DNA of 37,709 nt from Verrucomicrobiota bacterium (GTDB lineage Bacteria; Verrucomicrobiota; Verrucomicrobiia; Verrucomicrobiales; Verrucomicrobiaceae), in contig CAUJJC010000304.1 in assembly GCA_963204975.1 (NCBI GenBank), forward strand, positions 1-37,709, in the 5' to 3' direction. The position numbers and the translations under genes are program-made. The notes under the pieces were generated by a model. The model was not told where the DNA came from. It saw nothing but the letters and a program-made list of their open reading frames with translations, and did not search any database. This document shows, in pieces, positions 19,812 to 33,709 of the stretch; position 1 is the first letter of the stretch, and every line of letters starts with the position of its first letter.

Positions 19812-23114
<3,303 letters not shown>

Positions 23115-23198: not shown

Positions 23199-23933
23199 AT
23201 GAAACTGCCGAAATCTATCAGCCCGTGCCCTATCGTTGAGGCCGTGTTTGAGTCGCGGTTCCAGACTGACGCACCTGAAGAGGCTGTTGTCGGCATGGTT
23301 TATCAGGCATTGCGGAAGGATTTCCCGAAGATGAGTGCCTTGCCGCTGGCCAGCCTCCCGCAGCAGATGAGAAAGGCAGACCCGGAGTTTACTTACCAAC
23401 CGCTTCATCGCTTGGAAGGGGAACGCATGGTTTTGCTGATTGGGCCACGCAATTTCGCAATCGCCAGCAAGGGCGACTATCTTGGTTGGCAGGAGTATTG
23501 TGCAGATGCTCTCCGCGTATTCGATACCATAGCTACGACCGGTATTTTCCAGAAGATCGAAAGATTTGGTCTGCGTTATATCAGCTTCTTTGAGGGAGAT
23601 GTTTTGAGCAATCTGACGCTGTCAGTCCAATTGCAGGGAAGGGAAATTCAAGGTGGCGAATCGTTCTTCAGAACGATACTACAGTGGGAAGGATGCTCTT
23701 GTCATTTGCAGGTTGGTAAAGACCTCAAACTCTCAAACCGAGATGGGAAGGCTGGTTCAGTGGTAGATATTGATGCGTTTGTGCAATCGCCAACGGCGAG
23801 CGGAAGTCCCCTTGATGATGCAAAGGGCTTTCTAGAGATGGCTCACCATGCAGAAAAAGACTTGTTCTTTACTCTCCTGAAGCCAGAATTCCTCGCGACC
23901 CTCTCACCAACCTATGAAGCCTCAACTACCTAG
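23199..23933 (+). CDS. TIGR04255 family protein
   Basis: A 244-residue protein of the TIGR04255 family, whose function is unknown. The family start is clear (PCPIVEAVFESRFQTDAPEE, from about residue 9), followed by a middle with GERMVLLIGPRNFAIASKGD and FQKIERFGLRYISFFEGDVL, and a C-terminal helix EMAHHAEKDLFFTLLKPEFL. It is the first gene of a tight three-gene unit: the next gene overlaps it by 20 bp. G+C is near 42-45% in counted lines, far below carB next door (about 68%), so the unit was probably acquired. There is no signal peptide. A link to conflict or defence is suggested only by the setting. Confidence 0.85.
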   Translation: MKLPKSISPCPIVEAVFESRFQTDAPEEAVVGMVYQALRKDFPKMSALPLASLPQQMRKADPEFTYQPLHRLEGERMVLLIGPRNFAIASKGDYLGWQEYCADALRVFDTIATTGIFQKIERFGLRYISFFEGDVLSNLTLSVQLQGREIQGGESFFRTILQWEGCSCHLQVGKDLKLSNRDGKAGSVVDIDAFVQSPTASGSPLDDAKGFLEMAHHAEKDLFFTLLKPEFLATLSPTYEASTT

Positions 23934-24222
23934 CATGTATCGTTCGGCATCGGGGTTTGTTCCCTCGGTTTCGGTTGTGCTGATGACCTCTCTTGCGGGT
24001 TTGGCAGCTAACGGGAAGGCCGAGGAAAAAGACCTGTGCTACGGCCTGCACCCTCACGGAATGGGGAATGCAGTGTTTTATCACCCTGCTTCCATTGAGG
24101 TTCGCAGTGAGCCGAGCGATGTGCTCCAGAAGTTTGCAGTCCAGATGCTTCAAGAATCGGTTGATCTGCCAGCAGCAGCAACTGAAGTCATCAACGAGCA
24201 TTTCTGGGATCTGCTGCTATGA
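23914..24222 (+). CDS. Hypothetical protein, middle gene of the TIGR04255 operon
   Basis: A 102-residue protein of unknown function. It begins MKPQLPSMYRSASGFVPSVS and continues with a short hydrophobic stretch (VVLMTSLAGLAA). A polar middle YGLHPHGMGNAVFYHPASIE and a C-terminal helical part with VLQKFAVQMLQESVDLP follow. It overlaps the TIGR04255 gene by 20 bp; an ATG at 23935, 1 bp after that gene's stop, is an alternative start. It is joined to the next gene by an ATGA overlap. Such double coupling usually means that the products act together in a fixed ratio. Possible membrane attachment through residues 18-32 is uncertain. Confidence 0.75.
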   Translation: MKPQLPSMYRSASGFVPSVSVVLMTSLAGLAANGKAEEKDLCYGLHPHGMGNAVFYHPASIEVRSEPSDVLQKFAVQMLQESVDLPAAATEVINEHFWDLLL

Positions 24223-24836
24223 GCGAAGCCGAACTTCTCGAAGATTTTAAGCAGTATTTGCCCAAATACTTGTCGCCAAACGGCACCGAGAACCTGTTCG
24301 CCGAACTGAAGCAGTTTCCTGCCAACATCGACCAGAGGCTTTACACGTCTCTCTTGAAAGCTGAGCCGATTATTTATCAAGGTGATGGCCTCTCAAACCT
24401 GCCGATTGTAAATCTACCGGACGCCAGAATAGAGGGGAAAAAGGCGATGGTCCTGTCAAACACATGCGACATTTCGCCAGATAATCCCAGGCCGATCCCA
24501 GCACGGATGATTTATTGCCCGATCATCAGCTTTGAGAAATTCGAGCGATTGCTGACGGCATCCCAAGCGAGTGTTTCAGACCACTACCTGAGGGACATTC
24601 GAGCTCAGAAAGTGAGTTCAATGTTCTTTCTGCCGAGAAATGACTCTCTCGGAGAGGATGCCATCGTTCTTTTGGACCGGGCAAACAATTGCGACATCAA
24701 TCAAGTTCCAGCGCACGAGATTCAATCGCGCCGACTGTTCACATTGAGCGACTACGGATTCTACCTTCTTATCTTCAAGCTTTCGATTCACTTTACCAGG
24801 ATTCGTGAAGCAGTGCGCCGGACCTCTGAGTCCTGA
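24219..24836 (+). CDS. Hypothetical protein with an SNTCDIS motif, last gene of the TIGR04255 operon
   Basis: A 205-residue soluble protein of unknown function. The most striking segment is KKAMVLSNTCDISPDNPRPI (from about residue 74), where a Cys-Asp pair follows a predicted beta strand. Nearby are YCPIISFEKFERLL, VSSMFFLPRNDSLGEDAIVL and the C-terminal FTLSDYGFYLLIFKLSIHFT helix ending RIREAVRR. The conserved-looking Cys/Asp and Asn could form an active or metal site, but this is inference. It shares the low G+C of the operon and its start codon overlaps the previous stop (ATGA). Its last 32 bases overlap the earliest possible start of the transposase gene, so an insertion boundary lies at or just after this stop. 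Confidence 0.75.
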   Translation: MSEAELLEDFKQYLPKYLSPNGTENLFAELKQFPANIDQRLYTSLLKAEPIIYQGDGLSNLPIVNLPDARIEGKKAMVLSNTCDISPDNPRPIPARMIYCPIISFEKFERLLTASQASVSDHYLRDIRAQKVSSMFFLPRNDSLGEDAIVLLDRANNCDINQVPAHEIQSRRLFTLSDYGFYLLIFKLSIHFTRIREAVRRTSES

Positions 24837-25413
24837 GAGGGCGAAAAGCAAGAGTGAGGCTGGGCTGCAAAGTGTATTCACTCTTTTCTTCACCTTCTGC
24901 CGCGCCGATTCGCTGCCGCGTGAACTCCTCGACGACTGGCTTCGCGCCCGCGAGGCCTTCCTCGCCGCGAATCCGCTGCCGTGGGACGACATCACCGAAG
25001 CGTGCTACCACGGCCAGTTCACCGACAAACTCGACGAACACCTCGACGCCGCGCACGGCTCCTGTGCCGTGCGTGATCCAGGCCTCGCTCAAATCGTTGC
25101 AGACCGCCTGCATCACTTCGACGGCCAGCGCTACGACCTCTGGAGCTACGTCATCATGCCCAATCACGTCCACGTCCTCTTCACCCTCCGCGACAGCGAA
25201 TCCCTCCCCGACACGCTCCAAGGCTGGAAAGGCGTTTCGAGCCGTCTCATCCACAAAACCGGCCTCAGCGCCCTGAATCCCTTCTGGCAGCCCGATTACT
25301 TCGACCGCCTCATCCGCAGTCCTGAACACTTCAGCACCGTGAAGGCCTACATGCGTGAAAATCCCGCCAAAGCGTGCTTGAAGGCCGGTTTTGCTCTTTG
25401 GGAGCGAAGCTGA
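24805..25413 (+). CDS. REP-associated tyrosine transposase (RAYT, Y1/HUH type)
   Basis: A single-strand transposase-like protein of the TnpA-REP/Y1 family that mobilises short palindromic repeats. The HUH core is clear in RYDLWSYVIMPNHVHVLFTL, with His-Val-His, and is followed by LQGWKGVSSRLIHKTG and FWQPDYFDRLIRSPEHFSTV, with the catalytic Tyr probably in the latter, then VKAYMRENPAKACL. The start is doubtful. Members usually open with about 20 residues leading to a TFRLADSLP-type strand; here residues before FFTFCRADSLP do not look like the family, and the frame overlaps the previous gene. It may therefore be 5'-truncated. G+C is high and unlike the operon before it. Confidence 0.85.
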   Translation: MKQCAGPLSPERAKSKSEAGLQSVFTLFFTFCRADSLPRELLDDWLRAREAFLAANPLPWDDITEACYHGQFTDKLDEHLDAAHGSCAVRDPGLAQIVADRLHHFDGQRYDLWSYVIMPNHVHVLFTLRDSESLPDTLQGWKGVSSRLIHKTGLSALNPFWQPDYFDRLIRSPEHFSTVKAYMRENPAKACLKAGFALWERS

Positions 25414-25695: not shown

Positions 25696-26178
25696 ATGAA
25701 CCAGCTCATTTACGTCGAGACCAGCATCCCGAGTTTCTACTTCGAAACCCGGCCTGGGGCACAAATCCAGGCCCGCCGTGAATGGACTCGCGAATGGTGG
25801 GAACTGGCACAGTGGCAGGACGAGTTGGTTTCCTCTCTCTGGGTGGTCCGAGAACTCGAAGAGACACCTGAACCGAAGCGGTCGGAATGCTTGGATTTGT
25901 TGCAGGGGCTTCGGTTGCTTCAGTCTGCCCCTGAGATTGATGAGATGGTCGAGCACTACATTGCCCATAAAGTCATGCCTGCGGATGCCGATGGCGATGC
26001 CCGCCACTTGGCAGTCGCCACGTTCTGGAAGTGTGATATTCTTGCCTCGTGGAACTGCAAGCACATCGCCAATGCGAACAAAAGCGATCACATCCGACAT
26101 GTGAACGAGGGGCTTGGCTTTGAAACGCCAAAGCTCATCACGCCGTATCACCTGCTAGAGTCAGGAGTTGACCCATGA
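25696..26178 (+). CDS. PIN-domain toxin-like protein
   Basis: A 160-residue PIN-domain protein, probably a type II toxin with RNase activity. The first strand YVETSIPSFYFETRP (residues 6-20) has Glu in place of the first PIN Asp, as in a known subgroup. SSLWVVRELEETPEPKR supplies the second acidic residue, PADADGDARHLAVATFWKCD the third, and LASWNCKHIANANK the C-terminal motif. I used ATG 25696 because it gives the standard start; the open frame further upstream lies in repeat DNA. It overlaps the next gene by ATGA, so toxin precedes antitoxin, the reverse of the commonest order. Confidence 0.85.
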   Translation: MNQLIYVETSIPSFYFETRPGAQIQARREWTREWWELAQWQDELVSSLWVVRELEETPEPKRSECLDLLQGLRLLQSAPEIDEMVEHYIAHKVMPADADGDARHLAVATFWKCDILASWNCKHIANANKSDHIRHVNEGLGFETPKLITPYHLLESGVDP

Positions 26179-26366
26179 AAACCACACCATCAACGCCGTC
26201 CCCAGACACAGACGACCTCGAATGGCTGCGAGCCATTCGGCGCAAGCTCACGTCCGAGTTTGGACACGACCAGAAGAAGCTCGGTGATGCCCTTCGAGCG
26301 CGGGAGCAGCGGATGGGTGATCGCATCGTCCGCACACAGAAGCGTCTCGTCCCAGCGCAACCCTGA
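26175..26366 (+). CDS. Small partner (putative antitoxin) of the PIN protein
   Basis: A 63-residue protein starting MKTTPSTPSPDTDDLEWLRA and continuing IRRKLTSEFGHDQKKLGDAL, a charged helical region. Small proteins of this pattern (RAIRRKLTSEFGHD) are known directly after PIN genes of this subgroup and are taken to be their antitoxins. The start overlaps the toxin stop (ATGA). No DNA-binding fold can be assigned by eye. The next dispersed repeat begins 30 bp after the stop. Confidence 0.75.
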   Translation: MKTTPSTPSPDTDDLEWLRAIRRKLTSEFGHDQKKLGDALRAREQRMGDRIVRTQKRLVPAQP

Positions 26367-33058: not shown

Positions 33059-33343
33059 ATGCCCAAAAGGACCTACCAACCCTCCAAGAGAACTCGCAAG
33101 CAGCAGTTCGGTTTCCGTGCTCGCACCAAGACTGCGAAAGGTCGCGACATTCTTCGTCGTCGTCGCAAGGCAGGCCGCAAGCGTCTCACGCCTAAAGCGA
33201 CGGACATCAAGTTCCGCCGCCACACCAATTCTAACAAGCCTATGCTGGCTGATGCAACCTACGCCCGGCAAGTCCGCTCGGCGAGAGGTCAGAAGCTCGC
33301 GGCAAAGGCCCGTGCCGCTGCAGCAGCGGCTGCCAAGGCGTAA
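33059..33343 (+). CDS. rpmH: 50S ribosomal protein L34 with long C-terminal extension
   Basis: L34 lies in the large ribosomal subunit near 23S rRNA. Residues 1-45 are a typical L34 ([20 protein letters not shown] from residue 3, then [10 protein letters not shown]). Standard L34 stops there at about 44-46 residues; here the protein continues for about 50 more residues ([20 protein letters not shown], then basic and finally alanine/lysine-rich up to residue 94). The extension is in frame with good codon use. It may be a lineage feature or a distinct rRNA-binding tail. First gene of rpmH-rnpA-yidD-yidC-jag. Confidence 0.95.
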
Positions 33344-33361
33344 AGCCTGGCTTCGTCTCGT

Positions 33362-33709
33362 ATGCGTCTGCCCTCCCGCCTTCGTTTGAAGGCCTCCCGT
33401 GACTTTGCACAGGTCCGGGAGTTGGGGCAGAGCTTCCCTGGGCGATTTGTGGTGCTCGGAGTCCAGAAAGTGGCCGATCAATCACACTTCCAGTTTGGTC
33501 TGATCACCACCCGCAAGCTCGGGCATGCCGTCGTCCGTAACCGTATCCGAAGGTTGCTACGCGAAATTATCCGCGAAAAGCAGGCCCTGTTTGCCCTTGA
33601 TGTGCGCCTCGTAGTGATTGCACGTTGGCGGGCTGCGGAGGCCTCACTGGAGGATCTTCAATCTGACCTGCTAAAAACAGCTCGTCGCGCAGGTGTCTTG
33701 AAAGCATGA
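33362..33709 (+). CDS. rnpA: Ribonuclease P protein component
   Basis: The protein subunit of RNase P, which trims the 5' ends of tRNA precursors together with the RNA subunit. The 115-residue protein has the conserved start ([15 protein letters not shown]), the beta strand [20 protein letters not shown] and the RNR motif helix [16 protein letters not shown] (about residues 60-75) that binds the RNA. It starts 18 bp after rpmH. Its stop overlaps the yidD start (ATGA), so the two are translationally coupled. Confidence 0.96.

Follow-up and report, generated by a model that had tools for sequence, protein, structure and literature searches.

What do three closely packed genes of no named function do when they recur together in bacteria and phages? 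The question is raised by a stretch of 37,709 nucleotides from a Verrucomicrobiota bacterium (contig CAUJJC010000304.1 of GenBank assembly GCA_963204975.1), which we call the window and which carries such a set at positions 23199 to 24836. An earlier reading, made from the letters without database searches (the sequence-only reading), had put this operon forward as a candidate for an undescribed conflict or defence system. Its genes are:

23199..23933, + strand: gene 1 (T1), a TIGR04255 protein of 244 amino acids (NCBIfam match); proposed guardian or sensor of T2
23914..24222 (alternative start 23935), + strand: gene 2 (T2), 102 amino acids (from the list of open reading frames, ORFs); proposed antitoxin
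24219..24836, + strand: gene 3 (T3), 205 amino acids (phrog_4575, predicted MazF fold); proposed toxin

We consider it probable, by no means certain, that the operon is a three-part toxin–antitoxin system, with T3 as the toxin, T2 as the antitoxin, and T1 as a guardian and probable sensor of the trigger. The evidence in hand comprises (i) the gene order and its tight spacing, (ii) the swapping of the third gene in related operons, (iii) the predicted fold of T3, (iv) a tryptophan in the tail of T2, and (v) residence in temperate phages. The assignment of the third slot to a toxin, of the second to an antitoxin and of TIGR04255 to a shared extra component follows mainly from the swapping.

Third genes are exchanged in TIGR04255 operons

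TIGR04255 was searched in three phyla and found in 16 of 387, 16 of 296 and 28 of 349 genomes (centre genomes included), and the census drawn from these searches holds 62 genes, the three centre loci (the window, L160 and L227) being left out. The second gene starts within 15 nucleotides of the T1 stop in 59 of the 62 and overlaps it in 53, a figure that is overstated by the rule of picking the longest ORF around the stop at its earliest start. A third gene was found in 60 operons, within 20 nucleotides of the second in 56, and a few of the picks (such as L145, L147 and L219) may be chance ORFs.

TIGR04255 thus heads three-gene operons with exchangeable third genes. The commonest occupant of the third slot (17 of 60; L131, L134, L136, L138, L141, L181, L211, L221 and others) is an unnamed family of about 140 amino acids, here called 'SVSRH', whose second gene encodes 155–208 amino acids; the one such pair that was scanned had no Pfam match. 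Eight slots hold a T3-type protein (seven strong matches, and L137 at E 4e-4), two of them supplied by G417 and G430, which also came from the T3 scan described below. Five hold a partner of about 270 amino acids behind a T2 of helix-turn-helix (HTH) type, a class assigned from a Pfam HTH match just below the cut-off in L132 and above it in L163 (outside the census), and otherwise by eye. PemK occupies four (L182, E 4.1e-13; L183 and L184, which are nearly identical; L216), HEPN-type proteins another four (L130 and L180 with Pfam matches below the cut-off, and L232 and L239 through their cluster), a PIN protein one (L146, E 2.8e-11), and small or single families the remaining 21. Outside the census, L203 carries a HEPN protein over the Pfam cut-off and L200 a weak HicA match (E 0.006). 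Since PemK is generally uncommon (22 matches in 79 genomes of the window's phylum, the four slots being from two other phyla), four in 62 slots greatly exceeds what would be expected.

In L132, L163, L174, L214, L217 and L223, the HTH-type second gene is followed by a protein of about 247–281 amino acids with a cysteine motif such as TQSCNL or TQACDL; such proteins may be distant relatives of T3.

T3 is predicted to adopt a MazF fold

Structure prediction of the 205-residue protein, a check proposed in the sequence-only reading, gave a confident model (pLDDT 91.4), which fold comparison places with the MazF/CcdB-type barrels. A helical N-terminus (residues 1 to about 49) precedes the predicted MazF/CcdB-fold domain (about residues 50–196). 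By sequence, T3 matches phrog_4575, a phage family without an assigned function (E 2.9e-41). The Cys-Asp motif SNTCDIS, picked out earlier, is present in the translation, and Q54, G55, D56, N81 and C83 are invariant across 84 aligned rows; the fold alignments leave out L001–L003 and broken, partial or identical copies of T3 or T1 (L006, L053–L055, L063, L066–L068, L071).

T1 is a member of TIGR04255 (E 5.7e-34; 118 bits against a curated cut-off of 30 bits), an NCBIfam subfamily model that carries no function and is silent on partners, and also matches phrog_5464, another phage family without an assigned function (E 1.7e-30). Its structure model is of high confidence (pLDDT 95.4). When T1, T3 and their profiles were compared with the sequences of solved structures, no credible match emerged. 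Identity as a restriction enzyme was considered and dropped, the match to BstYI having an E of only 0.91. None of the three proteins is named by Pfam over a cut-off or matched by PADLOC at E≤1, so that the absence of a named function, as first noticed from the letters, holds for library names, with T1 and T3 matching phage families that have no function either. Searches of the open-access literature returned no paper on TIGR04255 (CHP04255, IPR026349), phrog_5464 or phrog_4575; subscription papers and preprints were outside this scope.

The three families recur as a set

At E≤1e-3, the relatives of T3 number 740, of which 120 were listed. Searched for on its own, T3 turned up at 67 loci of genome contigs and at 34 of viral contigs; in 57 and 33 of these, respectively, a TIGR04255 gene is encoded upstream in the same orientation. 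A lack of recurrent co-occurrence of the three families would have refuted the sequence-only reading, but they do co-occur: 90 of the 101 loci found through T3 alone carry TIGR04255, and in all 90 an ORF of 85–199 amino acids separates T1 from T3. Such recurrence is not given by chance. Some viral loci duplicate genome loci, leaving 85 unique T2s among 94 (window and L001–L003 included). By record titles, complete sets are found in Verrucomicrobia, Bacteroidota, several proteobacterial classes, Spirochaetia, Omnitrophota, Lentisphaerae, Hydrogenedentes, Cloacimonadota and Nitrospinaceae.

The other 11 loci comprise four that end at a contig edge (L005, L066, L068, L071), one without a T3 hit (L070) and six true exceptions. 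The first place is taken by a gene of 246–268 amino acids without a TIGR04255 match in L008, L061 and L065, and by one of 242 amino acids with a weak trace of it (E 0.27) in L046; T2 and T3 stand alone in L031; and in L077, a viral contig, a T2-like ORF and T3 follow other ORFs. The genes of about 260 amino acids that precede the T2-place ORF and T3 in L061 and L065, both from Bacteroidota, look similar and are possibly a second kind of first component.

The set is sporadic: among 387 genomes of the window's phylum, T3 occurs in 2, one of them the window's own. This scatter, together with that of TIGR04255 in the three phyla, the foreign composition of the genes and their phage copies, argues against an operon with some unspecified housekeeping or metabolic task. 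In favour of such an operon, no named toxin domain is found over a cut-off by sequence in any of the three proteins; we considered it highly improbable and dropped it.

T2 carries a conserved tryptophan-bearing tail

T2, for which seven relatives were found, evolves fast, and its best-conserved part is the C-terminal end, with a consensus of about N-x-F-W-D-L (INEHFWDLLL in the window). A tryptophan lies within the last eight residues of 64 of the 85 unique T2s, occupying 9.4% of positions there versus 0.55% elsewhere. ORFs with EWEW-like ends were present at 4 of 22 MazF loci of the window's phylum, counted per locus irrespective of their position relative to mazF and with a pattern that itself demanded tryptophan near the end. 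The tail of the PemK-type T2, searched in plasmids, had no match. In L146, the T2 tail resembles (E 0.05) a 96-amino-acid protein encoded directly 5′ of a PIN gene on a Planktothrix plasmid. On that plasmid (L298), the small gene and the PIN-domain gene lie between the BREX gene pglX and the DISARM gene drmA.

The N-terminal half of the window's T2 is moderately hydrophobic. Over the first 60 residues of the 85 unique T2s, the best 17-residue mean hydropathy has a median of 1.61 and reaches at least 1.6 in 44. This hydrophobic part need not be the part that binds T1. T2 could also be a small membrane-active toxin that T1 and T3 restrain or deliver, the MazF fold of T3 then being a binding module, as in protein-binding proteins of CcdB fold. 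We regard this as unlikely: in the sister operons the toxin enzymes PemK and PIN occupy the slot of T3 and not that of T2, and none of the four T2s examined from PemK and PIN operons has the hydrophobic stretch.

With T2 as the antitoxin, the operon resembles type II toxin–antitoxin systems in that a small antitoxin-like gene is coupled to a toxin-like gene, here by a 4-nucleotide overlap. The MazEF and PemIK pairs are alike in the predicted fold of T3, in a small gene that immediately precedes the toxin-like one, in a tryptophan-bearing tail, and in the presence of PemK in the same slot of the four sister operons named above. They differ in lacking the extra first gene of the window operon, and T3 differs from their toxins in its N-terminal helical part, its own invariant residues and the absence of a MazF sequence match.

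Copies on phages and the insertion site behind carB

In phage VW-6S the set lies between the CI repressor and integrase genes, and in phage Dobby (Peduoviridae) T1-T2-T3 ends at the portal gene. The available part of PMC9122126 places an antiviral hotspot of E. coli P2 between gpA and the portal gene gpQ; the Dobby copy, compared at the portal side only, adjoins one flank of this hotspot like the known cargo (old-tin and others), from which it differs in that the three-gene set is not named as cargo in that part of the paper. A C-terminal piece of the VW-6S T2 is annotated as a XerC integrase (L001 4044-4992) and the annotated T1 start lies 114 nucleotides later than the ORF start; both are likely misannotations. 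A further copy, on a circular element of Phocaeicola, adjoins an ORF that looks by eye like an integrase.

These positions could point to a prophage superinfection-exclusion or immunity cassette that blocks incoming phage directly and has no self-toxic part, as could the 34 viral-contig loci. We doubt this explanation, however: 67 loci are from bacterial genome contigs of many phyla (their prophage share was not sorted), and the third slot is swapped for known toxin families.

The window operon begins 84 nucleotides behind carB, and in relatives the 3′ end of carB serves as an insertion site. One gene follows carB by 16 nucleotides in L260 and by 1.7, 1.8, 2.6 and 10.7 kb in L264, L269, L261 and L265, respectively, these being the five of 20 stretches in which it was located. 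The genes behind carB differ, by eye, in the 16 readable relatives out of 19, and in 6 of the 20 stretches the C-terminal segment of carB is partly repeated 0.7–2.6 kb downstream (one or two extra copies each, two in L272). The loci behind these observations are L260, L261, L264, L265, L269, L272, L273 and L275–L277, plus window positions 19812-23114; a second copy of the carB end was looked for in the window, and none was found.

Location at this site, the Phocaeicola copy and the toxin-like third gene would suit an addiction module that stabilises a plasmid or island and has no antiphage role. Nevertheless, a third protein is superfluous for addiction alone, and one of the phage-borne copies occupies a position known to hold antiviral cargo; we rate such a module as improbable.

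Reading frames, composition and neighbours in the window

The three + strand ORFs with overlaps of 20 and 4 nucleotides, as first described, are present as ORFs. The longer overlap hinges on the start of T2, which is uncertain because five of seven close relatives, recorded as 79–95 amino acids long, begin at or after the second methionine; a start there would lie just past the T1 stop and abolish it. The claim of foreign composition was right in direction (50.6% G+C for the three genes together, versus 59.4% for the window and 61.2% for carB) but not in size, the genes standing at 50.6% (T1), 52.8% (T2) and 49.2% (T3) rather than at 42–45%. A promoter and terminator scan gave few matches, near shuffle means, none of which accounts for the operon. 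The neighbours read from the letters, carB upstream and a transposase downstream, are both borne out:

19812..23114, + strand: carB (Pfam CPSase domains), context outside the system, with the operon at its 3′ end
24805..25413, + strand: REP-associated or IS200-like transposase ORF, context (Y1_Tnp, E 2.4e-9; NF047646, E 1.2e-15, below cut-off)

The 'toxin–antitoxin island' said to begin here is a weaker case: a 160-amino-acid ORF at 25696-26175 resembles a PIN toxin in appearance alone, no Pfam model matching it at E≤1, and the ORF at 28448-28915 matches DUF3368 below the model cut-off. The PIN-looking ORF overlaps one of 63 amino acids (25696-26363 together, after the transposase), likewise without a Pfam match at E≤1. 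At 33059-33709, rpmH and rnpA lie side by side. The pair suggests that this end of the contig lies close to a region commonly located by the replication origin.

Weighing the toxin–antitoxin reading

Several results weigh against the interpretation of the operon as a three-part toxin–antitoxin system. At the sequence level, T3 has no match to Pfam PemK/MazF (PF02452) at E≤1, and alignment of its profile with that of 19 MazF relatives (hhalign; L120, L122 and L127 left out) gave a probability of 2.5%, which is no link. A conserved catalytic residue of MazF is the arginine of an Arg-Pro motif; this arginine is invariant in the 19 relatives, and T3 has no evident conserved counterpart at the likely site, mapped by secondary structure and eye. 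The most basic column among T3 positions 68–79, again mapped by eye, is position 72, with 60% lysine or arginine and a glutamate in the window. The fold matches of T1 are weak and mixed, without visible likeness to SecB, which is absent among those listed. The hydrophobic stretch of T2 beats its own shuffles at 0.05 in just 26 of 85 proteins and is rarer in the T2s of other operon types (at least 1.6 in 4 of 30, L184, a near-duplicate, and small families being left out). Most third-slot families have no recognised toxin domain, the 17 'SVSRH' proteins being an example. The Planktothrix tail match is weak, and of the two records compared out of four such, the one from Nostoc was poorer, with VapC three genes further.

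Finally, enrichment beside known defence genes, a check proposed in the sequence-only reading, was not found: 132 flanking ORFs (of 163 candidates) drew 93 PADLOC models, and 112 ORFs taken from arbitrarily chosen parts of the same genome set drew 75, a crude comparison of raw model counts. As the flanking counts do not exceed the comparison set, the defence-island argument is numerically unsupported. Nor do the ORFs behind carB in relatives exceed it, with 51 models in 96 ORFs (95 of 134 listed and one with hand-set coordinates). Of the conflict or defence proposal, a conflict-type role fits the predicted MazF fold, the toxin swapping and the phage copies.

A proposed model for a three-part switch

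In toxin–antitoxin–chaperone (TAC) systems, a chaperone protects the antitoxin from degradation, according to the available parts of PMC11618068 and PMC6377645, and in CmdTAC a phage capsid protein draws the chaperone away (PMC11618068, in part). By analogy with this logic, we propose the following model with T1 as the guardian. T1 would bind the N-terminal part of T2 and keep T2 folded, and the tryptophan-containing C-terminal tail of T2 would cover T3. A product of a phage or of another stress would remove T1, upon which T2 would be degraded. The freed T3 would then attack RNA or another target, and growth and phage production would halt. The action of this switch is perhaps antiphage.

The window operon and the TAC systems (HigBA1-SecB-TA of M. 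tuberculosis and CmdTAC of E. coli) share three coupled genes and, as far as the same parts of PMC11618068 and PMC6377645 extend, a third component shared across systems whose toxins differ and include several endoribonucleases. They differ in that the shared component is TIGR04255, without SecB likeness among the fold matches listed, that it is the first gene in the window operon, and that any addiction segment would lie in the N-terminal part of T2, as opposed to C-terminal in TAC antitoxins. We do not claim membership of the TAC systems, given that no likeness to SecB came to light and that the addiction segment is putative. Three-component or combinatorial toxin systems are discussed in Makarova 2009 (PMC2701414) and in the NetFlax paper (PMC10440598), in the available parts of which TIGR04255 is not mentioned.

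The operon may open an undescribed class of three-part systems. In a bolder form, which we put forward tentatively and hold to be possible but not likely, TIGR04255 would serve as guardian and phage sensor throughout a large combinatorial class of three-part systems, as yet undescribed, in which antitoxin–toxin pairs are interchangeable (MazF, PIN, HEPN and several families never recognised as toxins), and the enzyme in the window's branch would combine the MazF fold with a new active site based on an invariant cysteine beside a nearly invariant aspartate. If true, three-part toxin systems of an entire class could be recognised by the annotation 'TIGR04255', and hypotheses on function would follow for many unnamed third-slot protein families. 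Furthermore, the toxin–antitoxin–chaperone idea, in which a separate protein decides whether the antitoxin survives, would gain a second, unrelated-looking guardian, which would bear directly on how toxin systems sense phages.
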